Assembly: GCA_947561585.1 (NCBI GenBank)
Contig: CANNZV010002510.1
Span: 1 to 64,000, forward strand
Source: Caprella mutica
Taxonomy: Eukaryota; Arthropoda; Malacostraca; Amphipoda; Caprellidae
DNA length: 64,000 bases
Reading direction: 5' to 3'
Of this stretch, positions 4,371 to 53,866 are shown one piece after another (positions within the stretch are counted from its first letter, which is position 1; every line of letters begins with the position of its first letter). The position numbers were made by a program, and so were the translations under genes. Under the pieces are notes generated by a model. That model did no database searches. It had not been told where the DNA came from and was given only the letters and a program-made list of their open reading frames with translations.

Positions 4371-5516
4371 ATAATACAGCAATAATTTTTAATGCTTTTT
4401 CCTATTTCATATAACAGCTTCTCGTTTTACATCAGTTGGGGGAAGAAAATGGTTTTCTTTAATTTGGACGAAGATAAAAAACTACAATAAATCGTATACC
4501 AAAGAGGTAATACAGTTTATTATGGTAGTTATTAATTATCAAGTTTTAGGTATCTAAAATAATGTACCATATATGAAATATCAATTATAATATTATAGTT
4601 TCAATTTCGATAATAGAGTTTCAATTTCGTTACATTAATTATTCTTATCATATTTAATTTGCCCAGTACAAATACGAAATATATTTAAAAAAAGTAATAA
4701 AATATATGAAATACAACTATATCTATTACAAAACATTGTTATTGTAGATTAATATGCATTTTTAGTGATTCTATGGCTCCTATTTCATTCTGCTCTATTT
4801 ATATTTAGATTTTCAGTTATACTTAAATTCAGATTCAATAATTGTCACACAAAATTCACTTTCACTTCAAATTATTTTATTTTATTTAACAACATGAATT
4901 CAAAGTATCTATGTGCAGGTAATTTTTATCTGTGGAATAAACAAGTCACAATGTGTATTAAATTATTAAAAAGATTATAGGTGTACCTAGGCAGATATAT
5001 AAAGTATGCAAAACTAAACGATGTATAAACTAAAATCAAAACTGATAAATGGTAATTGAATAATCGTGCATTGTACTCAAAAAGTTGAATAATATTAATA
5101 GAAAATATCAGAAGCATATAAATTAATTTCGGGTATAATGACGAATGAATGGACATTGAACAAAACCTAAATTACCTAGTACAAAAACAGGGAACAAACT
5201 AGTTACCTGCTGATCAGAAATGCAGTGAATTTATTCTAATTAATTAAATGCTATAGAACTCAAGAAAGAAATCAGCTATCGAGGTATACTTGGAGAGACT
5301 AAATAAAAAGTTAATCAGTTCTTGTAACGAAGCTGAGCAGTGCTAGCAAGTATCATTCCATCTAATTGACAAAATGATCTACCGCAGTTATTTTTAGGTG
5401 TTAATATTAATAAGGTGTAGATAATTGGCTCGTTGCTTGGCCGCTCTGCACCCAGCAACGGTTAGGTTACAAGCCTCTGTTGACTCGTTGTATGGGGCAA
5501 GCCTGACCCGGTGTCC
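4371..5516. other. AT-rich sequence, no gene seen
   Basis: No feature is recognised over most of this stretch. At 5410-5516 base composition rises in GC just outside the inverted minisatellite that begins the next element. Confidence 0.5.
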
Positions 5517-8380: not shown

Positions 8381-9677
8381 CAGGGTGGGGCGTAAGTTTG
8401 GAAGCAAATGGAAAGTGCATATTATAATCCAACGAAAAATATATTTAATAATTTACAGTTATGTATTATTACATAAGGGTTTTAAGAATTCAAAAATCAT
8501 AAATTTATTCAAAATGTCCCCCCTTGTTTTTAATAACAGCCTCAAATCTCCTTCGAACTCTTCCTACTGCGGCACGCAACTGTTCTTGTGAAATTTCCTT
8601 CCAAGATCTCTGGAGCGAACGCTTTAAATCATCCACACTGCGATGGAATATACCACAGGCCTTTGATTCAAGAATGGACCAAACCGAAAAGTCCATAGGA
8701 TTAACATCTGGGGAGCAGGGAGGCCACATTTCTTTGGACCAAAACCGTGGAAGATGGTCATGGCACCAGTTTTGAGTGACATTTGCAGTATGTGAAGTCG
8801 CGCCGTCTTGCTGAAATGTCCATAGAGTGTCATTACCGAAGTGATCCTTAGCTGACTCCAAAATTGGCGTCAAAATATTCTCAATATAACATTTAGCATT
8901 GATTTTGGCGCCTTGTTCCACAAAAATTAAAGGAGATCTCCAAGTTTCTGAAACGGCGGCCCAGACCATTACTGAAGCAGGTTTCATGGTTCTGTGGACA
9001 GTTTTTTGGTTGTATGGGATGTCTTTTGCACTTTTACCAATTATTCTGTCATTCCTCCGGTTGTGAGCCATTTCCACTGTGAAATTTTTTTCGTCAGACC
9101 AAACAATTTCACCAGCCGTGCCAGACTTCAATTCTCTCAGAAGTGCTTTGCTTCTCTCCAATCTCTTTTTCTTTACAGCTTCTGACAGAGTTTGTCTCTT
9201 TTGGAGGGTGAAAGAGGACATCTTTAGGTCTTCTTTGACAACTGTTCTCATTGTTCTGGGACTCACATTAGCTGTTTTGGCTAACAATCGTATTGACCTT
9301 TTCGGGTTCCTCCTGATCTTCTATCGGGCACATTTTATCAGTTGTTTGGTGCGTTGTGAGCGTGGTCTACCACTTCTTGGACGATCAGTCAAGTCTCCTC
9401 TCTCATTAAAACGCTTCACACACTTCCAAACAGTCGATCTCGCTATTGAGAGAGTCTTTGAAATGACGGAATCTGACTTCCCGGCACGGTGTAGAGCAAT
9501 AATGGCTTCTCTTTTGTCTGACATTTTTGAATTGACTAAATTTTTGTAAAAAATAACACAGCCACGTCATAATGTAGTGTCTCTACTTTAGTTCAAACCC
9601 TATCACCTACTTAGGAACTTATTTTTAAGAATTATATTAATGTTTGAAAAATTGCTTCCAAACTTACGCCCCACCTG
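8381..9677 (-). mobile_element. Tc1/mariner-superfamily transposon, 1.3 kb, nearly complete
   Basis: Terminal inverted repeats of about 27 bp start GGTGGGGCGTAAGTTTGGAA. The ends are flanked by TA on both sides (8379-8380 and 9678-9679), the expected target duplication. The length (1297 bp) and the single transposase frame on the minus strand fit a full mariner-type element. An 18-bp minisatellite begins about 55 bp beyond its right end. The coding region has one in-frame TAG, so this copy is probably not active by itself. Confidence 0.93.
8505..9524 (-). pseudogene. Mariner-type transposase, DD37D-like, one in-frame stop
   Basis: The frame starts at ATG (9524) and reads to a stop at 8505, about 339 codons, with a single TAG at 9321-9323 after QLIKCAR; the frame is otherwise open and unshifted. 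The N-terminal part has helix-turn-helix character (KSDSVISKTLSIARSTVWKC) and the RPRSGRPR linker. The catalytic part shows VWSDEKNFTV (first Asp), TFQQDGATSHTA (second Asp) and PPCSPDVNPMDFSVW (third Asp). I count 37 residues between the second and third Asp, which matches the maT-type DD37D group of the Tc1/mariner superfamily rather than classic DD34D mariner or DD34E Tc1. All three acidic residues are kept, so the stop is the only obvious lesion. Confidence 0.9.
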
Positions 9678-11317: not shown

Positions 11318-11740
11318 TGTTGATACTCTCTTTGTACCAATGTTATGCCCTTTGTACCAATGCTACTCTCTTTGTACCAATGCTACTCTCTTTGTACCAA
11401 TGCTACTCTCTTTGTACCAATGCTACTCTCTTTGTACCAATGCTACTCTCTTTGTACCAATGTTATGCCCTTTGTACCAATGCTACTCTCTTTGTACCAA
11501 TGCTTCTCTCTTTGTACCAATGCTACTCTCTTTGTACCAATGCTACTCTCTTTGTACCAATGCTACTCTCTTTGTACCAATGCTACTCCCTTTGTACCAA
11601 TGCTACTCTCTTTGTACCAATGCTACTCTCTTTGTACCAATGCTACTCTCTTTGTACCAATGCTACTCTCTTTGTACCAATGCTACTCTCTTTGTACCAA
11701 TGCTACTCTCTTTGTACCAATGCTACTCTCTTTGTACCAA
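11318..11740. repeat. Minisatellite, 20-bp unit (CTCTTTGTACCAATGCTACT)
   Basis: About 21 units in perfect register. Two positions, 120 bp apart (11341 and 11461), carry the same TTATGCCC variant, a hint of block duplication. Because 20 is not a multiple of 3, all three plus frames are open and read the same peptide repeat; none is a gene. Confidence 0.95.
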
Positions 11741-12586
11741 AAGTGCACTTCATTCTCCTCAGTCTAAAATGCAATAAAATACAAACGAATTTTATTTCGC
11801 CCCTAACAATATCGTTCGCATTTTTCGGAGAATAAAAGGAACGAATAATTCCAGTCTCTCTAATTCCAGTCCCTCTAATTCCATTTTTTAGGAATGTTTT
11901 TAAGGGTTCCTGGAATGTTCTTTAGAAACATAAACATCGTTGAATGTCTCTTAAAAGAAAATTAAAATGAGTGAATGTTTTCCTTTGATTTTACGGTACT
12001 GTGAATAGAATGTTTGAAGTACTTCGCCCTGGCAAACTGATTGGTGATTGTATTCATTTTAATTAACTAAAAAAACACATGAATTATGTTTTACCGAAAA
12101 ATTACAATCTTACACCAATTCCATATTTATTTTTCTACAAATTTCTTCGTCATTCAAAAGTGAATTTTTTCTAGTAATTCCAAGTGTTCCCACTTACATT
12201 CCCAAACTCCTTCTCTAATTCCAAGTATTCCCACCACGTTACTGCAATAGCTTTCTTTCCGTCACAAGAAAATTCTCCGGTTAAATGATTTCTATATTTC
12301 AACTGCGATCGACTGATACCATTCCAGTTATTTGAAGCCATTCCCGAAATAGACTGGAATGACGCCAATGATCTAATTTGTGAAGTCTTTTTTACTTTTC
12401 ATTGGGAAATCAAATGAATTTAAAGGAAAAATGTTATAATTTAACTTGTTTTGAGTATTAGATGATTACGTAATGAAATGATGATATATTCTTTTAATTT
12501 TCTCATAATTACTAATTATAAATATATAATTATGATATTTATCAGTCAGTGCTGTAACAGGTAATATTAAAAATAAGATAGAATTA
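11741..12586. other. Unique AT-rich sequence, no gene seen
   Basis: Around 11850-11880 the phrase CTCTAATTCCAGTC recurs two to three times. Otherwise nothing is recognised. Confidence 0.5.
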
Positions 12587-19454: not shown

Positions 19455-22212
19455 TGTAAATCTTTACTATCACCCTGTACATCTTTACTATCATCCTGTA
19501 CATCTTTACTATCACCCTGTACATCTTTACTATCACCCTGTACATCTTTACTATCACCCTGTACATCTTTACTATCACCCTGTACATCTGTACTATCACC
19601 CTGTACATCTTTACTATCACCCTGTACATCTTTACTATCATCCTCTACATCTTTACTATCATCCTCTACATCTTTACTATCATCCTCTACATCTTTACTA
19701 TCACCCTGTACATCTGTACTATCACCCTGTACATCTGTACTATGACCCTGTACATCTTTACTATCACCCTGTACATCTTTAGTATCACCCTGTACATCTG
19801 TACTATCACCCTGTACATCTGTACTATCACCCTGTATATCTTTAGTATCACCCTGTACATCTTTAGTATCACCCTGTACATCTTTAGTATCACCCTGTAC
19901 ATCTTTAGTATCACCCTGTACATCTGTACTATCACCCTGTATATCTTTAGTATCACCCTGTACATCTTTAGTATCACCCTGTACATCTTTAGTATCATCC
20001 TGTACATCTTTAGTATCACCCTGTACATCTGTACTATCACCCTGTATATCTTTACTATGACCCTGTACATCTTTAGTATCACCCTGTACATCTGTACTAT
20101 CACCCTGTACATCTCTACTATCACCCTGTATATCTTTAGTATCACCCTGTACATCTTTAGTATCACCCTGTACATCTTTAGTATCACCCTGTACATCTTT
20201 AGTATCACCCTGTACATCTGTACTATCACCCTGTATATCTTTAGTATCACCCTGTACATCTTTACTATGACCCTGTACATCTTTAGTATCACCCTGTACA
20301 TCTTTACTATCACCCTGTACATCTGTACTATCACCCTGTATATCTTTACTATGACCCTGTACATCTTTAGTATCACCCTGTACATCTTTACTATCACCCT
20401 GTACATCTGTACTATCACCCTGTACATCTGTACTATCACCCTGTACATCTTTACTATCACCCTGTACATCTGTACTATCACCCTGTATATCTTTAGTATC
20501 ACCCTGTACATCTTTACTATCACCCTGTACATCTTTACTATCACCCTGTACATCTTTACTATCATCCTCTACATCTTTACTATCATCCTCTACATCTTTA
20601 CTATCATCCTCTACATCTTTACTATCACCCTGTACATCTGTACTATCACCCTGTACATCTGTACTATGACCCTGTACATCTTTACTATCACCCTGTACAT
20701 CTTTAGTATCACCCTGTACATCTGTACTATCACCCTGTACATCTGTACTATCACCCTGTATATCTTTAGTATCACCCTGTACATCTTTAGTATCACCCTG
20801 TACATCTTTAGTATCACCCTGTACATCTTTAGTATCACCCTGTACATCTGTACTATCACCCTGTATATCTTTAGTATCACCCTGTACATCTTTAGTATCA
20901 CCCTGTACATCTTTAGTATCATCCTGTACATCTTTAGTATCACCCTGTACATCTGTACTATCACCCTGTATATCTTTACTATGACCCTGTACATCTTTAG
21001 TATCACCCTGTACACCTGTACTATCACCCTGTACATCTGTACTATCACCCTGTATATCTTTAGTATCACCCTGTACATCTTTAGTATCACCCTGTACATC
21101 TTTAGTATCACCCTGTACATCTTTAGTATCACCCTGTACATCTGTACTATCACCCTGTATATCTTTAGTATCACCCTGTACATCTTTACTATGACCCTGT
21201 ACATCTTTAGTATCACCCTGTACATCTTTACTATCACCCTGTACATCTGTACTATCACCCTGTATATCTTTACTATGACCCTGTACATCTTTAGTATCAC
21301 CCTGTACATCTTTACTATCACCCTGTACATCTGTACTATCACCCTGTACATCTGTACTATCACCATGTACATCTTTACTATCACCCTGTACATCTGTACT
21401 ATCACCCTGTACATCTTTACTATCACCCTGTACATCTGTACTATCACCCTGTATATCTTTAGTATCACCCTGTACATCTTTACTATCACCCTGTACATCT
21501 TTACTATCACCCTGTACATCTTTACTATCACCCTGTACATCTGTACTATCACCCTGTACATCTTTACTATCACCCTGTACATCTTTACTATCACCCTGTA
21601 CATCTTTACTATCACCCTGTACATCTTTACTATCACCCTGTACATCTGTACTATCACCCTGTACATCTTTACTATCACCCTGTACATCTGTACTATCACC
21701 CTGTACATCTGTACTATCACCCTGTACATCTTTACTATCACCCTGTACATCTGTACTATCACCCTGTACATCTTTACTATCACCCTGTACATCTGTACTA
21801 TCACCCTGTACATCTGTACTATCACCCTGTATATCTTTACTATCACCCTGTACATCTGTACTATCACCCTGTACATCTGTACTATCACCCTGTATATCTT
21901 TAGTATCACCCTGTACATCTTTACTATCACTCTGTAAATCTGTACTATCACCCTGTACATCTGTACTATCACCCTGTACATCTGCACTATCACTCTGAAA
22001 ATATTTACTATGACCCTGTACATCTGTACTATCACCCTGTACATCTTTACTATCACCCTGTACATCTTAACTATCACCGTGTACATCTGTACTATCACCC
22101 TGTACATCTTTACTATCACCCTGTACATCTTAACTATCACCGTGTACATCTGTACTATCACCCTGTACATCTTAACTATCACCCTGTACATCTTTACTAT
22201 CACCCTGTATAT
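19455..22212. repeat. Large minisatellite, 21-bp unit (CACCCTGTACATCTTTA core), with higher-order repeat
   Basis: About 130 units. Single-base variants (TTTACTAT, TTTAGTAT, TGTACTAT, ATGACCCTG, ATCATCCTC, TATATC) mark unit types. The order of types from about 19630 repeats from about 20554 with an offset of 924 bp (44 units) and only a few differences, so the array has a higher-order period. Open frames of up to 731 codons on both strands (ITLYIF / RVIVKMY repeats) follow from a 21-bp unit lacking stops and are not called as genes. Confidence 0.95.
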
Positions 22213-22463
22213 TTTAATTCATTCTACCATAGGTCACCATTATTTCCGCTTTTATTTCTTATCTACATTTCTTATCTGTACCCCTTATCTCTTACCTTTA
22301 TCTTTTATCGCTTGCAGATCAATACACTGAGTACACACATTCATGTTTACTCATTTTAGTACTAATGTACTTCTTAACATGAAGAAACATGCACCTATTT
22401 TAATCTCAAACATGCACGTAGTAATATCACGTACATTTTTATTTCAATATTACTTCCTTTTTC

Positions 22464-22512
22464 TTATGTGATCGGAAATGTCGAACCGTTCAATGACTCG
22501 GAACTTACCCTA
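22464..22512. mobile_element. MITE family 2, right-end fragment (copy A)
   Basis: TTATGTGATCGGAAATGTCG ... ACTCGGAACTTACCCTA matches the right arm of family 2. The left arm is not seen. The duplicate lies at 28962-29010. Confidence 0.7.
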
Positions 22513-23187
22513 TTACTTATTGTAATGCACCATGATTATTATCATAACTTTTGCTAATATATATAATATATTAATCCCTCATATATAATATCAGTGTTGT
22601 CATCTATACGTATTGGAGAGATACTTGTTATCTTGTACGTTGTAAGAACATTAGTGTGCAAAAGTTATAAGTAATTACATACACAAATACTGGTAAAGGA
22701 TATATATTAAACTAATGAATGTATATAAAAATGATCTACTATATTTTTGATTGGAAAATATAGATTAAAAATCAAACAAGTACAAAATTATTTCCATTCG
22801 TAAATTGAAAGCTTTATGTAAAATAATTAATGAATAAAATATTTGTTTTCTAATTAAAACAAAAAAAAAAATAGCAAAATATACTAGAGTAATACTTTAC
22901 TCGGTAAAAATTAAATATGCATATGACATTTTACTAAGTCTTTTATTTTCTAATATGTAAATACTCATTGGGGAAAAAACGTATATAAATTTACCGCAAT
23001 AATCTCACTATTATTTATAAAGGCTGTATTGTATTTATTTAAATAGTTAATATGTTTCCTCTTACGATAGAAAATAAAATGTGGTTTTTAGAAGCTGTAT
23101 TTTTAAATAAGATAAAAGGCTCATATCCGCTGCTTCTCATGTATAATAAAAATAAAAACAACTTTTTATTGTAATGAAATACATGTA
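22513..23187. other. AT-rich sequence, no gene seen
   Basis: No repeat or exon is recognised; an almost identical copy lies at 29011-29685. Confidence 0.5.
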
Positions 23188-24300
23188 TTTAGCATTAGTT
23201 ACCTTTAGCATTAGTTACCTTTAGCATTAGTTACCATTAGCATTAGTTACCATTAGCATTAGTTACCTTTAGTATTAGTTACCATTAGCATTAGTTACCA
23301 TTAGTATTAGTTACCATTAGTATTAGTTACCTTTAGCATTAGTTACCATTAGCATTAGTTACCATTAGTATTAGTTACCTTTAGCATTAGTTACCATTAG
23401 CATTAGTTACCATTAGCATTAGTTACCTTTAGCATTAGTTACCTTTAGCATTAGTTACCTTTAGCATTAGTTACCTTTAGCATTAGTTACCATTAGCATT
23501 AGTTACCATCAGCATTAGTTACCTTTAGCATTAGTTACCATTAGCATTAGTTACCATTAGCATTAGTTACCATTAGCATTAGTTACCATTAGCATTAGTT
23601 ACCATTAGCATTAGTTACCATTAGTATTAGTTACCATTAGCATTAGTTACCTTTAGCATTAGTTACCTTTAGCATTAGTTACCATTAGCATTAGTTACCT
23701 TTAGCATTAGTTACCTTTAGCATTAGTTACCTTTAGCATTAGTTACCTTTAGCATTAGTTACCATTATCATTAGTTACCATTAGCATTAGTTACCTTTAG
23801 CATTAGTTACCTTTAGCATTAGTTACCTTTAGCATTAGTTACCTTTAGCATTAGTTACCATTAGCATTAGTTACCATTAGCATTAGTTACCTTTAGCATT
23901 AGTTACCATTAGTATTAGTTACCATTAGCATTAGTTACCATTAGCATTAGTTACCTTTAGCATTAGTTACCTTTAGCATTAGTTACCTTTAGCATTAGTT
24001 ACCATTAGCATTAGTTACCATTAGCATTAGTTACCTTTAGCATTAGTTACCTTTAGCATTAGTAACCTTTAGCATTAGTTACCATTAGCATTAGTTACCT
24101 TTAGCATTAGTTACCTTTAGTATTAGTTACCTTTAGTATTAGTTATCATTAGTATTAGTTATCTTTAGCATTTGTTATTTTTAGCATTAGTTACCTTTAG
24201 TATTAGTTACCTTTAGTATTAGTTACCTTTAGTATTAGTTACCTTTAGCATTTGTTATTTTTAGCATTAGTTATCTTTAGCATTAGTTTTCTTCAGTATT
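23188..24300. repeat. Minisatellite, 16-bp unit (AGCATTAGTTACCTTT), copy A
   Basis: About 69 units, alternating ACCTTTAGC and ACCATTAGC types, decaying toward the right end (TTATTTTTAGC). It abuts the foldback element at 24302. Copy B (29686-30430) has 23 fewer units. Confidence 0.95.
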
Positions 24301-24301
24301 A

Positions 24302-24915
24302 GTCATGGACTGTCAGTTGGGCCCAAAACAATTGGGCTTCGCAACATCGACAATTGACTGGGCCCCAAGATAATTTGGTACTGAACAATTGCATGGGCAC
24401 AAGATAATTGTGCTCGGGCAATTGATCCCAGGATAATTGAGCCCATAAAATATATTGTTACAGCAAATACAATATAGAAGTGATAATTTGTTATTACAGC
24501 AACAATGATCTTCAATTAAGTTGAATAACTTAATTAATAATAAACGGACTCTATTTCTCAAATGGCCTTCCTATTCACGGAATACAACTTCATAAAAGCA
24601 TTGAGTAAAAGTTAAATATTATATATGCATTGTTTTTTTGTACAAAGGCAAAACCATAATTCTCCAAGTTGTAGACGAGTCCGTTTTTATCAGAGTGTAA
24701 GGTATCAACTTACTTGAAGACCATTGCTACTGTAATAACAAAGTAACATTTTTATACTGTGTCTGCTGTCACAATTTATTTTATGGGCTCAATTGTCTTG
24801 GGGCCCAATTATCCTTTCCTAATTGCCCGGGCACAATTGTCTTGGGGCCCAATTATATCTGTCCAATTATCTGGGTCCAATTGTATTGGGCCCAATTGTC
24901 GCTGTTCCAGCGTTA
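24302..24915. mobile_element. Foldback element with inverted CAATTG minisatellite ends, copy A
   Basis: Left arm: GGGCCCAAAACAATTGGGC and related words, then TTGAGCCCATAAAATATATT and TTGTTATTACAGCAACAATG. Right arm: the same words inverted (TATTTTATGGGCTCAATTGT, GGGGCCCAATTATC). The pairing continues inward (AACGGACTC / GAGTCCGTT), so nearly the whole 610 bp can fold on itself. Short open frames on both strands come from the array. Confidence 0.8.
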
Positions 24916-25121
24916 GTCACATTTATCATTTGTTACCATTATCCTTTATTAATATCAATATCAAGTAGTTGGTCTCCAAATCACTCGTTTAATAGCTCAT
25001 ATCTGGTCAGTTACTCCCTTGGCTTTCATTACCTATGGCTAGATACACAATAGGCCAAGTCGTAAATATCAGATGTCTGGGCAATAGTCTCGAATGTTCT
25101 CTGCAGAATAGCGAAAAAGAA

Positions 25122-25885
25122 TTATTGCTAGATATAACTTTAGGAATTATTGCTATAGAAATAACTTTAAGACTTATTGCTGTTGATATAACTTTAAGAC
25201 TTATTGCTGTTGATATAACTTTAAGACTTATTGCTGTAGATATAACTTTAAGACTTATTGCTATAAATATAACTTTAAGACTTATTGCTGTTGATATAAC
25301 TTTAAGACTTATTGCTGTAGAAATAACTTTAAGACTTATTGCTGTTGATATAACTTTAAGACTTATTGCTGTTGATATAACTTTAAGACTTATTGCTGTT
25401 GATATAACTTTAAGACTTATTGCTGTTGATATAACTTTAAGACTTATTGCTGTTGATATAACTTTAAGACTTTTTGCTGTAGATATAACTTTAAGACTTA
25501 TTGCTATAAATATAACTTTAAGACTTATTGCTGTTGATATAACTTTGAGACTTATTGCTGTAGAAATAACTTTAAGACTTATTGCTGTTGATATAACTTT
25601 AAGACTTATTGCTGTTGATATAACTTTAAGACTTTTTGCTGTAGATATAACTTTAAGACTTATTGCTATAAATATAACTTTAAGACTTATTGCTGTTGAT
25701 ATAACTTTAAGACTTATTGCTATAGATATAACTATAAGACTTATTGCTATAGATATAATTTTAAGACTTATTGCTATAGATATAACTATAAGACTTATTG
25801 CTATAGATATAATTTTAAGACTTATTGCTATAGATATAACTATAAGACTTATTGCTATAGATATAACTATAAAAATTATTGCTAG
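25122..25885. repeat. Minisatellite, 27-bp unit (ATAACTTTAAGACTTATTGC core), copy A
   Basis: About 28 units; subtypes differ in CTGTTGAT, CTGTAGAT, CTATAAAT and CTATAGAT. The order CTGTTGAT ... TTTTTGC ... CTATAAAT recurs, a sign of block duplication. The open frame (ITLRLIAVD repeats) starts at a non-repeated ATG but has no other support as a gene. Confidence 0.95.
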
Positions 25886-26323
25886 ATATTATTTTAAGAA
25901 TGCATTTCTAACATGTATTTAAATCTATTTTATAATATTGGAAAATCATATAGTTCATTTTTTATTTACTAAATTCATATTCTTATGCTTTTTAATTTAA
26001 ATTAATTCAACGAACAATTAAAACATCCAAGTTTCCTTTCTCTAATTCACCTATTTGATTTATTTATTTATATTTTCCTTACAACTTTTATTTCTATGAT
26101 ATTTTCATGCTTATACTTCATACATACATTTATATCTTATTATATAATTAATTTATATATATTTTTATACTTTATTCTTTAATTGTCTGTGAGCTTTTGC
26201 TAAGATACTAGAAAATTTGAAACAATAAAAAAACTATTCGTTCTCTTTACATCAGAATGTATTTATTTACACAACAATTTGAACAACCAAACAAAGAGTT
26301 TATGATAATAATAATAAGCTTAA

Positions 26324-26539
26324 ATGGATAAGAACACATCAAATGTATCTTATATAATACTTCTGAATCTCTTACTTTGTTTTAAATTGAGTAATACAAG
26401 CAACGTAAATAGTTCCAGAGAATTGGCTATAAAAGTAAATGAAATACTGGGAGTAATCTCCAAAGACTTTTTAAAAGATTTGCAAATTTTATCATCCAAA
26501 TCGAAAGAGAAAGATGATTATGAGGAATATGTTTATTAA
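26324..26539 (+). CDS. Small hypothetical ORF, copy A (71 codons)
   Basis: ATG to stop, 71 residues, not low complexity: a hydrophobic stretch near residues 9-20 (SYIILLNLLLCFKL) then a charged, lysine- and glutamate-rich tail. It could be read as a small secreted peptide, but the surrounding DNA is AT-rich, no promoter or splice context is visible, and the identity of its duplicate only reflects the segmental duplication. I do not recognise it; a chance frame is at least as likely. Confidence 0.15.
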   Translation: MDKNTSNVSYIILLNLLLCFKLSNTSNVNSSRELAIKVNEILGVISKDFLKDLQILSSKSKEKDDYEEYVY

Positions 26540-27623
26540 TTTTATGCTAACTATTTGTAATTATTTTGGTATTATGTTTCGTAAGCTTTTTATAGTGACA
26601 AATAGGTAGAGTATTTATCAACATCAGCAGTATAGAAAGGCTGTTAAATCTCTCTAATTGTGTGCAGTAAAATGTAGCAGATTAGTTCAGAGGCTCTTCA
26701 TTATTTTCTGACTATTTTTGTGGTGAATTGAATTGAAAGGAAATCCACAGGATTTGAAATCTAATCCGATTTTGTTGTGGCTCTACCGGTGATATTTGGC
26801 ATTTAGTTTGAAATACCTTTGGTATTAGCAATTCTGGGTAAAATACCTTTGGTATTAGTAACACTGGTGAGTACCTTTTAAACCTGTAACATCAAATACT
26901 GAATAAAATAATGAAAACATCAAAGTTTACTGAATGATTATATATAATATTTGCAAGTCATTCCTCGTTTCTCTTATATATTCCTAACTACAAAGTATGT
27001 CATTAAATGCAAGTCATGAAATGCATGTCATAAAATGCAAGTCATAAAATGCATTTCTTCAAGTCTGTATCATAATATAATTGGCTTAATTAGAAAGTGT
27101 AACATGACTCACAGGTATCACATTTAAATACCTGGAGAGCGTCATAAATGCATTAATGTTTTAATTGCCGCAATAACATATGTAATGCTTATTAAATGAG
27201 AACTGCTTGAGAATGTGATACAAATGTGATACGAGACCCAATGCAGGGATTATATTACGCACATATGCTTTAACTGAGAGTTATTGCACATATAAATTAG
27301 CAGGGAATATTATTTGTATAATTTACATTAATATCAATAATGTGTATATGAAACTAACGTATTCGTTTCATCAAAACTAACGGTGTTACATTTCGCTACA
27401 AAATATGCCACAGAGTCATATTATAATAATAGTTGTTAATTTAAACTTAAATTAATGATTTAATCTTAAATTAATAATTTACACTTTAATTAGTAATTAA
27501 AACTTTAATAAGCAATTAAAACTTTAATTGTAATCTGTGCTACATTACTAAGTCACTTCTTCAAAGAATACGAAATAAGATAGATGTAAAAAGTTACAGA
27601 ATATAGTAATAAGAATAATTTTC
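26540..27623. other. AT-rich sequence, no gene seen (copy A)
   Basis: Contains a small direct repeat (AAATACCTTTGGTATTAG at about 26811 and 26851) and AAATGCAAGTCAT words at 27005-27060. No gene is recognised. Confidence 0.5.
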
Positions 27624-28712
27624 GTATCACCCTGTACATCTGTACTATCACCCTGTATATCTTTAGTATCACCCTGTACATCTTTACTATGACCCTGTAC
27701 ATCTTTAGTATCACCCTGTACATCTTTACTATCACCCTGTACATCTGTACTATCACCCTGTATATCTTTACTATGACCCTGTACATCTTTAGTATCACCC
27801 TGTACATCTTTACTATCACCCTGTACATCTGTACTATCACCCTGTACATCTGTACTATCACCATGTACATCTTTACTATCACCCTGTACATCTGTACTAT
27901 CACCCTGTACATCTTTACTATCACCCTGTACATCTGTACTATCACCCTGTATATCTTTAGTATCACCCTGTACATCTTTACTATCACCCTGTACATCTTT
28001 ACTATCACCCTGTACATCTTTACTATCACCCTGTACATCTGTACTATCACCCTGTACATCTTTACTATCACCCTGTACATCTTTACTATCACCCTGTACA
28101 TCTTTACTATCACCCTGTACATCTTTACTATCACCCTGTACATCTGTACTATCACCCTGTACATCTTTACTATCACCCTGTACATCTGTACTATCACCCT
28201 GTACATCTGTACTATCACCCTGTACATCTTTACTATCACCCTGTACATCTGTACTATCACCCTGTACATCTTTACTATCACCCTGTACATCTGTACTATC
28301 ACCCTGTACATCTGTACTATCACCCTGTATATCTTTACTATCACCCTGTACATCTGTACTATCACCCTGTACATCTGTACTATCACCCTGTATATCTTTA
28401 GTATCACCCTGTACATCTTTACTATCACTCTGTAAATCTGTACTATCACCCTGTACATCTGTACTATCACCCTGTACATCTGCACTATCACTCTGAAAAT
28501 ATTTACTATGACCCTGTACATCTGTACTATCACCCTGTACATCTTTACTATCACCCTGTACATCTTAACTATCACCGTGTACATCTGTACTATCACCCTG
28601 TACATCTTTACTATCACCCTGTACATCTTAACTATCACCGTGTACATCTGTACTATCACCCTGTACATCTTAACTATCACCCTGTACATCTTTACTATCA
28701 CCCTGTATATTT
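27624..28712. repeat. Minisatellite, 21-bp unit, copy B
   Basis: About 52 units, equal in unit order to 21126-22212. Open frames over it are by-products. Confidence 0.95.
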
Positions 28713-28961
28713 TAATTCATTCTACCATAGGTCACCATTATTTCCGCTTTTATTTCTTATCTACATTTCTTATCTGTACCCCTTATCTCTTACCTTTATC
28801 TTTTATCGCTTGCAGATCAATACACTGAGTACACACATTCATGTTTACTCATTTTAGTACTAATGTACTTCTTAACATGAAGAAACATGCACCTATTTTA
28901 ATCTCAAACATGCACGTAGTAATATCACGTACATTTTTATTTCAATATTACTTCCTTTTTC

Positions 28962-29010
28962 TTATGTGATCGGAAATGTCGAACCGTTCAATGACTCGGA
29001 ACTTACCCTA
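28962..29010. mobile_element. MITE family 2, right-end fragment (copy B)
   Basis: Duplicate of 22464-22512. Confidence 0.7.
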
Positions 29011-29685
29011 TTACTTATTGTAATGCACCATGATTATTATCATAACTTTTGCTAATATATATAATATATTAATCCCTCATATATAATATCAGTGTTGTCA
29101 TCTATACGTATTGGAGAGATACTTGTTATCTTGTACGTTGTAAGAACATTAGTGTGCAAAAGTTATAAGTAATTACATACACAAATACTGGTAAAGGATA
29201 TATATTAAACTAATGAATGTATATAAAAATGATCTACTATATTTTTGATTGGAAAATATAGATTAAAAATCAAACAAGTACAAAATTATTTCCATTCGTA
29301 AATTGAAAGCTTTATGTAAAATAATTAATGAATAAAATATTTGTTTTCTAATTAAAACAAAAAAAAAAATAGCAAAATATACTAGAGTAATACTTTACTC
29401 GGTAAAAATTAAATATGCATATGACATTTTACTAAGTCTTTTATTTTCTAATATGTAAATACTCATTGGGGAAAAAACGTATATAAATTTACCGCAATAA
29501 TCTCACTATTATTTATAAAGGCTGTATTGTATTTATTTAAATAGTTAATATGTTTCCTCTTACGATAGAAAATAAAATGTTGTTTTTAGAAGCTGTATTT
29601 TTAAATAAGATAAAAGGCTCATATCCGCTGCTTCTCATGTATAATAAAAATAAAAACAACTTTTTATTGTAATGAAATACATGTA

Positions 29686-30430
29686 TTTAGCATTAGTTAC
29701 CATTAGCATTAGTTACCATTAGCATTAGTTACCATTAGCATTAGTTACCATTAGCATTAGTTACCTTTAGTATTAGTTACCATTAGCATTAGTTACCATT
29801 AGTATTAGTTACCATTAGTATTAGTTACCATTAGCATTAGTTACCATTAGCATTAGTTACCATTAGCATTAGTTACCATTAGCATTAGTTACCTTTAGCA
29901 TTAGTTACCATTAGCATTAGTTACCTTTAGCATTAGTTACCTTTAGCATTAGTTACCTTTAGCATTAGTTACCTTTAGCATTAGTTACCATTAGCATTAG
30001 TTACCATTAGCATTAGTTACCTTTAGCATTAGTTACCATTAGTATTAGTTACCATTAGCATTAGTTACCATTAGCATTAGTTACCTTTAGCATTAGTTAC
30101 CTTTAGCATTAGTTACCTTTAGCATTAGTTACCATTAGCATTAGTTACCATTAGCATTAGTTACCTTTAGCATTAGTTACCTTTAGCATTAGTAACCTTT
30201 AGCATTAGTTACCATTAGCATTAGTTACCTTTAGCATTAGTTACCTTTAGTATTAGTTACCTTTAGTATTAGTTATCATTAGTATTAGTTATCTTTAGCA
30301 TTTGTTATTTTTAGCATTAGTTACCTTTAGTATTAGTTACCTTTAGTATTAGTTACCTTTAGTATTAGTTACCTTTAGCATTTGTTATTTTTAGCATTAG
30401 TTATCTTTAGCATTAGTTTTCTTCAGTATT
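29686..30430. repeat. Minisatellite, 16-bp unit, copy B (contracted)
   Basis: About 46 units; 23 units shorter than copy A, with a different order of variants in its left part and the same order in its right part. Confidence 0.95.
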
Positions 30431-30431
30431 A

Positions 30432-31045
30432 GTCATGGACTGTCAGTTGGGCCCAAAACAATTGGGCTTCGCAACATCGACAATTGACTGGGCCCCAAGA
30501 TAATTTGGTACTGAACAATTGCATGGGCACAAGATAATTGTGCTCGGGCAATTGATCCCAGGATAATTGAGCCCATAAAATATATTGTTACAGCAAATAC
30601 AATATAGAAGTGATAATTTGTTATTACAGCAACAATGATCTTCAATTAAGTTGAATAACTTAATTAATAATAAACGGACTCTATTTCTCAAATGGCCTTC
30701 CTATTCACGGAATACAACTTCATAAAAGCATTGAGTAAAAGTTAAATATTATATATGCATTGTTTTTTTGTACAAAGGCAAAACCATAATTCTCCAAGTT
30801 GTAGACGAGTCCGTTTTTATCAGAGTGTAAGGTATCAACTTACTTGAAGACCATTGCTACTGTACTAACAAAGTAACATTTTTATACTGTGTCTGCTGTC
30901 ACAATTTATTTTATGGGCTCAATTGTCTTGGGGCCCAATTATCCTTTCCTAATTGCCCGGGCACAATTGTCTTGGGGCCCAATTATATCTGTCCAATTAT
31001 CTGGGTCCAATTGTATTGGGCCCAATTGTCGCTGTTCCAGCGTTA
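30432..31045. mobile_element. Foldback element with inverted minisatellite ends, copy B
   Basis: Duplicate of 24302-24915 with one visible difference (CTGTACTAAC for CTGTAATAAC). Confidence 0.8.
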
Positions 31046-31251
31046 GTCACATTTATCATTTGTTACCATTATCCTTTATTAATATCAATATCAAGTAGTT
31101 GGTCTCCAAATCACTCGTTTAATAGCTCATATCTGGTCAGTTACTCCCTTGGCTTTCATTACCTATGGCTAGATACACAATAGGCCAAGTCGTAAATATC
31201 AGATGTCTGGGCAATAGTCTCGAATGTTCTCTGCAGAATAGCGAAAAAGAA

Positions 31252-32015
31252 TTATTGCTAGATATAACTTTAGGAATTATTGCTATAGAAATAACTTTAA
31301 GACTTATTGCTGTTGATATAACTTTAAGACTTATTGCTGTTGATATAACTTTAAGACTTATTGCTGTAGATATAACTTTAAGACTTATTGCTATAAATAT
31401 AACTTTAAGACTTATTGCTGTTGATATAACTTTAAGACTTATTGCTGTAGAAATAACTTTAAGACTTATTGCTGTTGATATAACTTTAAGACTTATTGCT
31501 GTTGATATAACTTTAAGACTTATTGCTGTTGATATAACTTTAAGACTTATTGCTGTTGATATAACTTTAAGACTTATTGCTGTTGATATAACTTTAAGAC
31601 TTTTTGCTGTAGATATAACTTTAAGACTTATTGCTATAAATATAACTTTAAGACTTATTGCTGTTGATATAACTTTGAGACTTATTGCTGTAGAAATAAC
31701 TTTAAGACTTATTGCTGTTGATATAACTTTAAGACTTATTGCTGTTGATATAACTTTAAGACTTTTTGCTGTAGATATAACTTTAAGACTTATTGCTATA
31801 AATATAACTTTAAGACTTATTGCTGTTGATATAACTTTAAGACTTATTGCTATAGATATAACTATAAGACTTATTGCTATAGATATAATTTTAAGACTTA
31901 TTGCTATAGATATAACTATAAGACTTATTGCTATAGATATAATTTTAAGACTTATTGCTATAGATATAACTATAAGACTTATTGCTATAGATATAACTAT
32001 AAAAATTATTGCTAG
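31252..32015. repeat. Minisatellite, 27-bp unit, copy B
   Basis: Same length and unit order as 25122-25885. Confidence 0.95.
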
Positions 32016-32453
32016 ATATTATTTTAAGAATGCATTTCTAACATGTATTTAAATCTATTTTATAATATTGGAAAATCATATAGTTCATTTTTTATTTACT
32101 AAATTCATATTCTTATGCTTTTTAATTTAAATTAATTCAACGAACAATTAAAACATCCAAGTTTCCTTTCTCTAATTCACCTATTTGATTTATTTATTTA
32201 TATTTTCCTTACAACTTTTATTTCTATGATATTTTCATGCTTATACTTCATACATACATTTATATCTTATTATATAATTAATTTATATATATTTTTATAC
32301 TTTATTCTTTAATTGTCTGTGAGCTTTTGCTAAGATACTAGAAAATTTGAAACAATAAAAAAACTATTCGTTCTCTTTACATCAGAATGTATTTATTTAC
32401 ACAACAATTTGAACAACCAAACAAAGAGTTTATGATAATAATAATAAGCTTAA

Positions 32454-32669
32454 ATGGATAAGAACACATCAAATGTATCTTATATAATACTTCTGAATCT
32501 CTTACTTTGTTTTAAATTGAGTAATACAAGCAACGTAAATAGTTCCAGAGAATTGGCTATAAAAGTAAATGAAATACTGGGAGTAATCTCCAAAGACTTT
32601 TTAAAAGATTTGCAAATTTTATCATCCAAATCGAAAGAGAAAGATGATTATGAGGAATATGTTTATTAA
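32454..32669 (+). CDS. Small hypothetical ORF, copy B (71 codons)
   Basis: Identical to the frame at 26324-26539, with the same hydrophobic N-terminal stretch and charged tail. No independent support; see that entry for the reservations. Confidence 0.12.
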   Translation: MDKNTSNVSYIILLNLLLCFKLSNTSNVNSSRELAIKVNEILGVISKDFLKDLQILSSKSKEKDDYEEYVY

Positions 32670-33760
32670 TTTTATGCTAACTATTTGTAATTATTTTGGT
32701 ATTATGTTTCGTAAGCTTTTTATAGTGACAAATAGGTAGAGTATTTATCAACATCAGCAGTATAGAAAGGCTGTTAAATCTCTCTAATTGTGTGCAGTAA
32801 AATGTAGCAGATTAGTTCAGAGGCTCTTCATTATTTTCTGACTATTTTTGTGGTGAATTGAATTGAAAGGAAATCCACAGGATTTGAAATCTAATCCGAT
32901 TTTGTTGTGGCTCTACCGGTGATATTTGGCATTTAGTTTGAAATACCTTTGGTATTAGCAATTCTGGGTAAAATACCTTTGGTATTAGTAACACTGGTGA
33001 GTACCTTTTAAACCTGTAACATCAAATACTGAATAAAATAATGAAAACATCAAAGTTTACTGAATGATTATATATAATATTTGCAAGTCATTCCTCGTTT
33101 CTCTTATATATTCCTAACTACAAAGTATGTCATTAAATGCAAGTCATGAAATGCATGTCATAAAATGCAAGTCATAAAATGCATTTCTTCAAGTCTGTAT
33201 CATAATATAATTGGCTTAATTAGAAAGTGTAACATGACTCACAGGTATCACATTTAAATACCTGGAGAGCGTCATAAATGCATTAATATTTTATCTTCTA
33301 ATTACTGCAATAACATATGTAATGCTTATTAAATGAGAACTGCTTGAGAATGTGATACAAATGTGATACGAGACCCAATGCAGGGATTATATTACGCACA
33401 TATGCTTTAACTGAGAGTTATTGCACATATAAATTAGCAGGGAATATTATTTGTATAATTTACATTAATATCAATAATGTGTATATGAAACTAACGTATT
33501 CGTTTCATCAAAACTAACGGTGTTACATTTCGCTACAAAATATGCCACAGAGTCATATTATAATAATAGTTGTTAATTTAAACTTAAATTAATGATTTAA
33601 TCTTAAATTAATAATTTACACTTTAATTAGTAATTAAAACTTTAATAAGCAATTAAAACTTTAATTGTAATCTGTGCTACATTACTAAGTCACTTCTTCA
33701 AAGAATACGAAATAAGATAGATGTAAAAAGTTACAGAATATAGTAATAAGAATAATTTCG

Positions 33761-48429: not shown

Positions 48430-51400
48430 ATGACGTCACTGACTCTCCTTCTGGTGGTTAGTTTAAGCTTTCAGTTCTCCTATGCGTCGCCTAAGCCCCC
48501 GTCAGTACCGGACATAACGGCAGCAATACGCTTCAACATGGATGACAGCCTTTATTCTGATGAAGAGGATCTGCAGACCGGGGTAGCGTCCCACATGGGG
48601 GAGGGAGGTGATATGAGAGGAGATTCTTTGAAGGAGAAGAGAGTACTGAGGACTAGGAGGAGCCCCGTGCTAGTGGAAGCGGCATCCATACCTTATTCCT
48701 CTGGAAGAATGAGGTCCTTTCCGTCTAGCAGGTGAATAGAAGTTAATATATCTCTTCAATTAGACAAATAATACTTAATTCGTTTTCTTTAATAAATCTT
48801 TATTTGTATACTTTACAGGTACCGATATCCAATTAACCGAAAGCGTAGCTCAAGGATTCCAGCTTACAAGCAGTCCGATGAACCAATGATTGGACTGTAC
48901 CAGGATTATCCTGAAGAGCGTTTGGCTGCTGAGTCGTACGCAATGATGAGGCCATCTCTATTCAGGGAGAGAACTGTCCACAATGGCCCCGAGGAGAAGG
49001 AGAGCTTTTTCGATGAGCCATTCCCTTCAAAAGATCTCCATGCTGGTACTGTGGACAGTGAAGATTACCCTGAAGAGCCAACATACGGTTTCTTAAATGA
49101 GGATGAGTCAGAGCCGTTCTTTGATGATAGTGCAATGAAGCCGAAACTCATGAGTTACTACAGGAGCTTGTTACAAGGTTTGAGAGACGCCAGACAACGA
49201 CAGATGATCAGAAATGAAAAATTGGAAGCTGAAGAAATGCAGTTGTTGAAGGAGTTGATGGAAAGAACGACAGCGAAGTTAGGAATTAACGATGGGGATG
49301 ATAATGATGCTTACACAATCGTGGGAGCAAAGTTTGAAGGTATCAATCCACTGATTCGAAGCAAGAGAGAATCTAATAATAATCAACATGAAGAACAATG
49401 GGTTAGAATGATGGGGAATTCAAGCGACCCCCGTTCTATGGCTATGAGGAATTCATTAGCCACATTATTGAAGAATCGCACGAAGAGAGCCAACAAATCG
49501 CCAGTGGAAAACCGAGTACAAGAATTGAAGAGACGCAAGAAGAGCTACCTACCTTACCAAAATGAGAAAGATGTGCTTGATGACCTCCTTGCAAGAGAGT
49601 ATTTCAAAACTATCGCTCAGAATGTCGGGGATAAGAAGAAGCGTTCTAGGTATGCTGGAGAGCTGTCGAAACGAGCACCCCTGGAAAACATATTGAATGA
49701 TCCTAGGGTATTGGATATGATGGAGCAGAAACTGAAAGGTAAAACATGTGTAAAATGCTTTACTTAAAGGCCGTACACACGTAGGGATTTTTAAGTCTTT
49801 CCACCAGACTTTTTGCTAAGCTCCTCCTACTTTTTCCACGAGAATATAAGAAAAAACGATATAAATGTTATTTATTTTATCATATCATTTTTTTATATTC
49901 TTGTGGAAAAAGTAGGAGGAGCTTAGCAAAAAGTCTGATGGAAAAACTTAAAAAAAAACCTACGTGTTTACGGCCCTTTAGCTATAAGATGCACCGTAAA
50001 ATTTACATGTTGATTGAAAGAGAAATTAATCCAAATTTCTGTATTCTACTGAAAAATCTTTCTACATACACAATATTCAATTTGGTTAGTGAACCTATTA
50101 TAGAAAAAAGTATTCGCAAAGGTAAGAAAGCGAATTATTTAATTCTAGAGAACATTATGAAAAAAGGTTTACAAATGAGATTAAATACATAATAATAAGG
50201 AAAACACTCAAATAGTATTGACAATATAAATAAATTCTATTTCCCCAGTGGCATTTGTCTCCAAGAAATAACAAACCATTGAGAGACTTCTTGTTAATTT
50301 TAGAGAATTCATTTGTGTTTCAGAAGCAGAGAGGGACCTGATGGTGGAGACGGAGGAGACAATCTTCAAAGAGCATCCCAAGCACCTGAAGACAGACAAA
50401 GGGGAATTGGACCACTTCTTCCGAAACTCACTGACGAGACTTGAAGCCATTCATAGGATGTTGGGGGCTGTGGAGGAGTTGCGGATGTTGCAAGAAGCGG
50501 AGGTGAGGGGAGGGGGATGGTGAGGATGTATAGGAGGAGGGGAGAAGGAGAGAGAGGTGAGGATGTTATAGGAGGAGGGAAAAGGTGGGAGGAGGTGAAG
50601 ATGTTACAGAGAGAGATGAGAAGGAGGAAGGAGGTGAGGATGTTACAGGTGGAGGTGAGAAGGAGGAAGGAGGTGAGGATGTTACAGGTGGAGGTGAGAG
50701 GGAGAGGAGAAGGTGTGAGTGTTATAGGCGGAGGTGAGAAGGAGAGGAGGAGGTGTGAATGTTATAGGAGGAGGTGATGTAGTAGATTAGAGGTGAGAAA
50801 GTAATTCACAAATGAAGATGATGAATATAAATTTAAAATTTATAATTTCCAACCGAATGACCTTAATAAAACTGCACATTATTTTTGGTAAAGTAAGAGC
50901 TTTGTTTGTTTGAGAAATATGAACTCTAAGTTTTATAAGAGTTTTCTTAAGCAGGCAACAAAATTTTATTATTTATTATAAGCACTATATTTTTTAGCCC
51001 TTCTTACAACACATTATTTTCCCTTAGAAACTCCATTACAGCTGAAGTGTTTTGTTTTCAGGCGAAGGAAAATAGCGACAAGAATACCCATCCTCGCAGC
51101 ATGCATCTTCACTCAAATGAGGAGCGAAAGAAGAAAGACTTTCGAGGCAATCCTCTCTATCCTCTTCTGGAGAAAATAAGTCAGGCTTCCTATGCGGGTG
51201 AGGACCCCCTTCCCCCCACCCCACCCCTATTTTCAAGGGGAGGGGGGCTGAGGAGGGCAGAGGGGGGTATAAGGTGCTTGTAGCTCTGATGGGGTTATAC
51301 ATAAATTATAAAGTATATAGAGTAGTAAGTTACAAATTATCAGTCATTTCTACATCTTCGGCTAATTAAGAAAAGACGATATAATAATATATTTTAATTG

Positions 51401-53866
51401 GTATTATGTGGATCTAATCGATAATTCGTAACTTACCCTATGTATAATGGTGACAAAAAAAACTCCCAGTGAGAATATTAACGTTTTTTTTAATTAATTA
51501 TTAATGGCAGCTCAAACTCATTGTAGAAGTGACATAAAAAAACAATTTGATTGACATCAATATTTAATTGCTCAAACACAATTTGAAATGCTATTCTAGA
51601 AAAAGAAAACTGTTATAAGTAAGACTTTCTCTCTGTTTTAATTGGTGTACGTATAATTAATTACCTTGTTGTTAAAAAAAATCGATGTTCCGCATATTAG
51701 TTTTTTATCCCGCGTGTTGCACCCAGAATGTCCAGCACTGGAACAAATGACTCTGAACTGCGAGGAACTTTCCGAAATTGTTGGCGATTCCGGCAACCTT
51801 TTCGTGCCTGCTTGCCTCACGCACGAAGTCTGCTATATGTGTGTAAGTAGTAATGGTAAATTTGTGCTATAGGTCCGCCTTCGATTTTCAATATTTCGAC
51901 ACTTCAATCATGAAGTGTGTAGTACGAGAAACTACCGGATACAACGAACTTCATTAACTGTTTCATATCAAAAAACGATTTCTACAAAAAAATCTAAATG
52001 GCGGAAAACTCCAGATAAAGAGCACTTGAGTTACCTGTCTAATGTTATTCCTACCGCCGGAAACTTAATTGCGCTATATCTCGAAAACGATGCGTTTCCA
52101 CAAAAAAAGGTATAAATGAAAAACGTCTTAAAATGGCTCATTTTGCCTATATAGAGTGTCCAAATTACGAAAATAGGAGGCGGAACAAAAACTCAAAAAC
52201 ACCGTAATTATTTTTAACGAAACTAATGAAGTTTTAAACGTAATGCATGTACAGTACTAAACAATTAGGTATAGTTTTAAGTAATCTAACGGCTTCACAT
52301 TTTCGATCTTTACAGAAAAAAATTGAGGTTTATCTATATGATCGAATTTTGAAACCGTTCGAACTTATCCTACAATGTAATATTTAAAAAAATATCGTGA
52401 AAAGAGAACGATAACAACAATCAAGTGGGTGCTACATCATTCACAGATTAGGTGTTAAAACAGTACCAATCTTCCACAGGGTTCCGAGGTTGGTGCTGAC
52501 GCTTCTAACTGCGACACCATGTTGGTTGCGTCCCTCATGGGGGCCTGCGATGACACCTCGGCTTGCATATCCAGCGCCACGGAGATGAAGAGCGTCTTGG
52601 TGTCCAATAACAGGTCAGCCAAAAAAATTGACAATATATATAAAAAAATGAAATAAAATAAAATGATATAAAATTAAATAAAATGAAAAAAATAAATAAA
52701 TAAAATGATATAAAATAAAATAAAATAAAATAAAATGATATAAAATAAAATAAAATAAAATGATATAAAAGGAAATAGATTGAAAAAAATGAAATAAAAT
52801 TTAATAAAATGAAAAAAAATAAATGAAAGAAATATATAAACAACAGAAATTGAAAAAAAAATTATTAAAATAAATGAATAAATGAAAAATAAATGGAAAA
52901 AATAAAAATATATCATTTAGAACAAAATTCTGATCCTCATAATTTGTAATAAATCGCTCCTCATAATTTGTAATGAATCGCTCCTCATAATTTGTAATGA
53001 ATCGCTCCTCATAATTTGTAATGAATCGCTTCTCATAATTTGTAATGAATCGCTCCTCATAATTTGTAATAAATCGCTCCTCATAATTTGTAATGAATCG
53101 CTCCTCATAATTTGTAATGAATCGCTCCTCATAATTTGTAATGAATCGCTCCTCATAATTTGTAATGAATCGCTCCTCATAATTTGTAATGAATCGCTCC
53201 TCATAATTTGTAATGAATCGCTCCTCATAATTTGTAATGAATCGCTCCTCATAATTTGTAATAAATCGCTCCTCATAATTTGTAATGAATCGCTCCCTTC
53301 ATTTGTTTTTCGTTAATCTTTAACGTGAATTCTTTCGTGACTATCTTTTTTATTTGAAACTCATTCTAAGAAGTTAAAGTATAAAGAATATCAATATTTT
53401 GTAGTTCGTCAACTTTTCTGAAAATGTAACAAATTTTCATGTTCAGGATTAATATTTTAGAAGTAGGAAAATTTGATATAAAAAATAACGTAATAAATTC
53501 GTCAAAGTTCGCTGCTACCGATGTTGAAGTTCAATGACTTTAGAGCATAATAATAATAAAAACACACTATTATTGTTAAGGAAATATAGAAGATTATTCC
53601 AGTACTCTTACAATTAGTTAGACAGACAGTATTCGGGAAGTGGGTGTTAATATAAATCATGTCAGAACAAGGAGAAATTTTTGTAGATTAGATTTGTTCA
53701 TGACTTATGTTAACGCCCATTTACCGAATACTTTGAGTGTCTCTATGTTAACCCTAGATAATTCTTATCGTTTTACGGTGTTTGTCCCATCAGGTTCGAT
53801 CCAAATGGAACGTGTGCCCACGTGCCATGCATAAGGTCTATAATGGAGAGCAGGAAAAAACGGTAA
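48430..53866 (+). CDS. Secreted prohormone-like precursor with C-terminal ten-cysteine domain
   Basis: Seven coding exons: 48430-48731, 48819-49738, 50324-50502, 51062-51197, 51727-51842, 52480-52613 and 53794-53866. All have GT-AG borders and matching phases, and sum to 1860 nt (619 residues plus stop). Residues 1-19 form a signal peptide (LTLLLVVSLSFQFSYA). Residues 20-513 are hydrophilic, lack cysteine and hold many basic sites: KEKR, RTRR, INRKR, IRSKR, NRTKR, RRKK, DKKKR and LSKR. Such sites are typical of neuropeptide or prohormone precursors cut by furin/PC-type proteases. The last 106 residues hold cysteines 514, 524, 542, 548, 551, 562, 574, 580, 603 and 608 (CPALEQM, ACLTHEVCYMC, GACDDTSAC, GTCAHVPC), a disulfide-rich secreted domain. 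The end is SRKKR. I recognise the architecture but not a named family; amidation signals are not obvious. Confidence 0.88.
49767..49977. mobile_element. Foldback MITE, family 1, in intron 2 of the prohormone gene
   Basis: Lies 28 bp after the exon-2 donor. AAGGCCGTACACACGTAGGG at the left and its inverse, ending ACGGCCCT, at the right; the central palindrome is deleted. Flanked by TTA on both sides if the first base is a mutated AGGGCC. Confidence 0.88.
50500..50790. repeat. Purine-rich degenerate repeat in intron 3
   Basis: Units of about 36-45 bp with GGAGGTGAGAAGGAGGAAGG and GAGGATGTTACAG. They begin at the exon-3 donor (GAG/GTGAGG), and nearly every unit repeats a donor-like AGGTGAG. Confidence 0.8.
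51322..51440. mobile_element. MITE family 2, short form, in intron 4
   Basis: TAGTAAGTTACAAATTATCAG at the left, ATTCGTAACTTACCCTA at the right; the core is reduced to TTAATTGGTATTATG. Confidence 0.75.
52262..52376. mobile_element. MITE family 2, diverged, in intron 5
   Basis: TAGGTATAGTTTTAAGTAAT, CTTCACATTTTCGATC, then TATATGATCGAATTTTGAAA and GAACTTATCCTA. Strongly worn. Confidence 0.6.
52620..52918. repeat. A-rich low-complexity tract (AAATAAAATGATAT words) in intron 6
   Basis: Plus strand almost without C; short AAATAAAAT repeats. Confidence 0.8.
52925..53297. repeat. Minisatellite, 24-bp unit (ATCGCTCCTCATAATTTGTA core) in intron 6
   Basis: About 15 nearly identical units, each with AATGAATCGC or AATAAATCGC. 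Confidence 0.95.
53627..53735. repeat. Imperfect hairpin just before the last splice acceptor
   Basis: CAGTATTCGGGAAGTGGGTG at 53627 pairs with CCCATTTACCGAATACTTTG ending at 53735; arms of about 35 bp with several mismatches. It ends about 60 bp before the exon-7 acceptor. Confidence 0.55.

Follow-up and report, generated by a model that had tools for sequence, protein, structure and literature searches.

A gene of seven exons, located at positions 48430-53866 of a 64,000-nucleotide stretch of the amphipod Caprella mutica (contig CANNZV010002510.1, positions 1 to 64,000, hereafter the window), is best explained, in our view and with moderate confidence, as coding for a secreted pro-protein that is processed by convertases and releases a domain similar to phospholipase A2 (PLA2) and probably non-hydrolytic. 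According to this explanation, a signal peptide would route the protein to secretion, and cleavage by furin or prohormone convertases at some of the basic clusters in its Cys-free pro-region (about 490 residues) would set free a disulfide-rich PLA2-like domain (about residues 513-615, hereafter the tail). With H545 and D563 kept and E546 at the calcium site, this domain would most likely have calcium, lipid or a protein partner as its ligand and lack efficient hydrolysis. If this is correct, a gene that had been left as an unassigned prohormone-like precursor becomes a specific and testable protein, having a PLA2-like domain with Glu at the calcium site, and a further case is added of an enzyme fold that is retained while its chemistry is switched off. 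It would also be a warning that arrays of basic sites in precursors need not mean peptide-hormone genes.

By sequence criteria the gene is real. Its seven exons, on the forward strand, join into one reading frame giving a product of 619 residues followed by a stop codon, and GT...AG borders were present at all six introns; the original prediction of seven exons joined in frame by clean splice sites was thus borne out. The G+C content of the exons (44-57%, with 53% at third codon positions) is higher than that of the introns (21-40%), and the frame of exon 2 (920 bases) stayed open in none of 20,000 mononucleotide shuffles. In addition, the join between exons 5 and 6 receives to some extent independent support, because the PLA2-like motif spans it (C551 | G552 ... 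C562-D563). The features of the gene, with their evidence, are the following.

48430..48731, + strand: exon 1, which holds the start codon and codes for the hydrophobic leader (up to about residue 20) and basic clusters KR70-71 and RR76-77 (splice join, hydrophobicity)
48819..49738, + strand: exon 2, which codes for the larger part of the Cys-free pro-region; its basic clusters are RKR108-110, KR283-284, KR323-324, KRRKK338-342, KKKR373-376 and KR385-386 (splice join, open-frame shuffles)
50324..50502, + strand: exon 3, Cys-free pro-region (splice join)
51062..51197, + strand: exon 4, end of the pro-region, with basic cluster RKKK489-492 (splice join)
51727..51842, + strand: exon 5, first half of the putative PLA2-like domain, with Cys 514, 524, 542, 548 and 551 (splice join, profiles, alignment)
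51822..51827, + strand: H545-E546 (CAC GAA), position of the His48-Asp49 pair of secreted PLA2 (sPLA2), with Glu replacing Asp (alignment)
52480..52613, + strand: exon 6, second half of the putative PLA2-like domain, with Cys 562, 574 and 580 (splice join, profile, alignment)
52513..52515, + strand: D563 (GAC), which corresponds to the Asp of the catalytic dyad (Asp99 in classical sPLA2; alignment)
53794..53866, + strand: exon 7, with Cys 603 and 608, the terminal RKKR cluster and the stop codon (splice join)

Bacterial relatives of the tail were selected with a motif taken from the tail itself, C-x2-H-E-x-C-Y-x-C-G, and only similarity outside this motif was counted as independent. Genome stretches were scanned with the HD form of the motif. 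From the 33 stretches found, five (L012, L013, L017, L022 and L024) were kept and 28 were dropped, the presence of an open frame and of a downstream CD being judged by eye. Two of the dropped ones, L009 and L015, carry long open frames of another kind, recognisable as P-type ATPases and not PLA2s. The query alignment by which twenty database proteins (P0001-P0020) were gathered included the Glu-bearing tail; these proteins overlap the earlier set, as P0001 includes the stretch of L013 and P0009 is L022. L022/P0009 and P0018 have their Cys-rich PF09056 PLA2-like domain at the end of proteins with repeats of the RHS type.

The tail scored 30.3 bits against a profile of the five relatives, a value reached by no shuffle in any control. 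The best shuffles scored 22.1 with the cysteines fixed, 26.0 with the motif fixed and 29.4 with both fixed (4,997-5,000 shuffles each); a first run with fixed cysteines had given 19.7 (n=4,999), making 9,996 shuffles of this kind in all. Against a 22-sequence profile the tail scored 28.5; when both motif and cysteines were kept, 8 of 5,000 shuffles attained this score (best, 32.2). The five-relative profile also found four solved fungal and bacterial PLA2s, with E values of 3e-8 to 4e-5. Outside the motif, the similarity comprises the upstream C524, the C562-D563 pair, the overall fit and the position of C574, spaced as in L012, L022 and L024. Three Cys spacings, C514-x9-C524, C524-x17-C542 and C562-x11-C574, are the same as in the relatives or at most two residues off. 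Given the motif, an upstream Cys plus a downstream CD appeared in 1,888 of 200,000 shuffles, and in 92 of 200,000 when a further Cys was demanded, the spacings in both counts having been chosen after seeing the data. Comparison by hhalign was discarded as evidence because the motif dominates its score: the tail reached 93.2 (90.8 against A4) and Cys-fixed shuffles (n=200) at most 9.8, but motif-fixed shuffles (n=200) reached up to 94.2. Taking together the three explanations that include a PLA2-like tail, this resemblance is very probably genuine as judged from the sequence.

In the alignment of 22 bacterial domains ten columns are invariant, and the tail keeps eight of these residues: C524, C542, H545, C548, Y549, C551, C562 and D563. 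An alignment of 21 bacterial sequences that left out the tail had eleven invariant residues, including a Tyr and a Gly of the last helix. H545, the active-site His in C-x2-H, belongs to the selecting motif, whereas D563, at the position of the dyad Asp, lies outside it. However, the Asp that holds the calcium, immediately after the His, is E546 in the tail, while HD is found in all 20 database relatives, even though the Glu-bearing tail was part of the query alignment. The tail is called PLA2-like, and not a PLA2 enzyme, because of this Glu. According to passages of a review, the same Asp-to-Glu change (D49E) in PLA2 keeps calcium binding and abolishes catalysis (PMC10150362). By this analogy, the domain may bind lipids rather than hydrolyse them, and it is from the Glu at the calcium-holding position that a non-hydrolytic binding domain is proposed. 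An active secreted PLA2, in which Glu546 would still position calcium and the pro-region would serve as an inhibitory or sorting propeptide, seems unlikely. H545 and D563 are retained, a carboxylate is still present at 546, and synthesis as a pro-protein has been published for some PLA2s, but the constancy of Asp among the relatives and the reported loss of catalysis in D49E argue against such an enzyme.

The domain proposed here, PLA2-like and probably non-hydrolytic, was compared with several known systems. The prokaryotic and fungal secreted PLA2s (PF09056; PDB 4aup, 7ygk, 8k1w and 1faz) are alike in the His, the dyad Asp and a Cys three residues before the His, and 7ygk has, like the tail, a C-x5-C after the dyad helix, as seen through a profile that includes the tail. 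Unlike them, the tail has HE for HD and ten cysteines, and follows a long Cys-free pro-region with basic clusters. The bacterial Cys-rich secreted PLA2-like proteins (P0001-P0020, L012 and L024) share with the tail, besides the eight invariant residues, the CYxC, the CD and the Cys spacing, but their N-terminal part is by eye different and shorter. The tail motif presumably resembles also that of the conodipines, group IX sPLA2s of cone snails. Conodipines are small disulfide-rich animal PLA2s cut from a longer precursor, as is proposed for the PLA2-like tail; in passages of the source this consists of signal, alpha chain, linker and beta chain, with an intact His-Asp, whereas here a single domain with Glu follows a long pro-region (PMC3914837). 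Mammalian sPLA2-III and sPLA2-X also have a PLA2 domain that is freed from a larger processed precursor, as proposed here: published passages state that sPLA2-X becomes active when its propeptide is removed by furin-type cleavage and that sPLA2-III is trimmed to the PLA2 domain (PMC7603386). However, both belong to other PLA2 subfamilies and are active enzymes. It is by analogy with sPLA2-X, sPLA2-III and the conodipines that cleavage of the pro-region and release of the domain are proposed. The Lys49-type PLA2-like proteins, as far as the passages of the review describe them, keep the PLA2 fold with residue 49 changed and act without catalysis (PMC10150362); they belong to another subfamily, and where the tail has Glu they carry Lys, with Ser, Asn or Gln as rarer variants.

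Among open-licence papers, no literature linking PLA2 or conodipines with neuropeptide precursors or prohormones was found, and passages on conodipine from part of the literature found concern no insect gene; both absences are weak. PTHR37687, IPR038875 and AGAP006772 designate a conodipine-like family with insect members; no open-licence literature was found under these names. Orthologues may therefore already be listed in databases with their function undescribed.

As for the layout of the precursor, the most hydrophobic 11-residue windows fall inside residues 1-17 (Kyte-Doolittle windows only), which corresponds to a putative signal peptide. Ten clusters of at least two Lys or Arg residues follow residue 20. 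The original prediction had placed such sites in the Cys-free region, and most are indeed there, but the last cluster, RKKR, ends the protein. As for an excised linker between two chains, as in conodipine, residues 493-615 hold no basic cluster, basic clusters being the only kind of cleavage site considered. The ten cysteines (514, 524, 542, 548, 551, 562, 574, 580, 603 and 608) lie, as had been predicted, near the C terminus and are coded by exons 5-7. The view that the precursor is secreted and rich in basic sites, and that its disulfide-rich tail may be the conserved functional part, was supported, the comparison being with bacterial relatives. The prohormone-like character that had also been claimed agrees with the basic sites but is weakened by the lack of an amidation Gly before the clusters and by the tail, which resembles a PLA2 enzyme domain. 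Regarding a close match to a known non-peptide enzyme, which had been named as contrary evidence, a PLA2 match was found, but a distant one, reached via bacterial relatives only and with an altered active site.

A little less likely than the active enzyme is a true prohormone, whose basic sites would border the signalling peptides and whose PLA2-like tail would assist folding or sorting or act as a carrier. The ten clusters, the hydrophobic leader and the balanced charge of the Cys-free region (86 acidic and 84 basic residues) would suit it. However, in the list of fragments none of the ten clusters is preceded by a Gly for amidation, and no look-alike peptides were seen by eye between the sites. 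Many prohormones have no amidation Gly, and its lack lowers the probability of this explanation rather than removing it. Less likely again is that one gene joins cleavable signalling peptides with a silenced PLA2-fold domain acting as an extracellular hormone-like ligand.

Several results weigh against the PLA2-like nature of the released domain. The tail alone gave no match at E up to 10 in Pfam (PF09056 included), in NCBIfam or among PDB sequences; the search of the whole genome with PF09056 (E up to 10) did not pick out exons 5-7; the PDB matches of the relatives' profile grow weaker once the tail is added; and a second invariant residue, a late-domain Gly, is Asn in the tail in a forced alignment. 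The tail had no direct match either in the protein database or in viral contigs, and its one match among phages (E up to 10), in a Gordonia phage with E 2, was treated as chance. With the whole protein, two Pfam matches below the cut-off, MDFI (E 0.0085; 16.5 bits, cut-off 27) and ParcG (E 0.079), were assumed to reflect composition and rejected. Because it lacks a feature that defines working PLA2s and by itself matches no Pfam model, the tail is classed neither as a PLA2 enzyme nor as a PF09056 member. It is as unlikely as the true prohormone that the tail is a disulfide-rich domain of some unrelated kind, with a signal or structural role, and that its C-x2-H-E-x-C-Y-x-C-G resemblance is due to chance: the lack of direct matches, the frequency of fortuitous similarities among short Cys-rich domains and the same motif in the presumed ATPase frames of L009 and L015 speak for it, but the similarity reaches past the motif and the cysteines, and three Cys spacings equal those of the relatives or differ by at most two residues.

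Other PLA2-related places were also recorded. The protein of exons 5-6 (exon 7 excluded) gave two matches in its own genome, both in the window (E up to 10), and the DNA of exon 5 gave one, the best candidates being scored in both cases. PF09056 pointed to one place in the genome, on contig C7053 (12421-12567; L044), with E 0.0115, below the cut-off. That stretch of the animal assembly looks bacterial, from a symbiont or a contaminant, because it adjoins a gene recognisable as smpB. PF05826 (group III PLA2) gave 11 candidate places on five contigs, all above the cut-off, seven of them with a read-through stop. One of seven viral stretches from the motif scans, L007, looks PLA2-like (PF09056, E 0.0013; 19.7 bits, below the cut-off of 29.4) and matched no PHROGs family. 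At 11630-11950 of its reverse strand it has an in-frame TGA at the Cys place of an NGCGP-like stretch, which could be selenocysteine, recoding or a pseudogene.

Elsewhere in the window, a block some 6 kb long occurs a second time downstream (21126-27621 and 27624-33758), with exact-identity runs of 1,957, 966, 2,422 and 452 bases at offsets of 6498, 6130, 6130 and 6137, respectively; the block was either duplicated in tandem very recently or duplicated in the assembly. Tandem Repeats Finder gave 84 rows between 413 and 63134. Many are minisatellites, arrays reach up to 2.8 kb, and several of these repeats yield long repeat-built open frames. Finally, a transposase fragment (PF13358 DDE_3, E 1.1e-7) was identified at 8508-9320 on the reverse strand.
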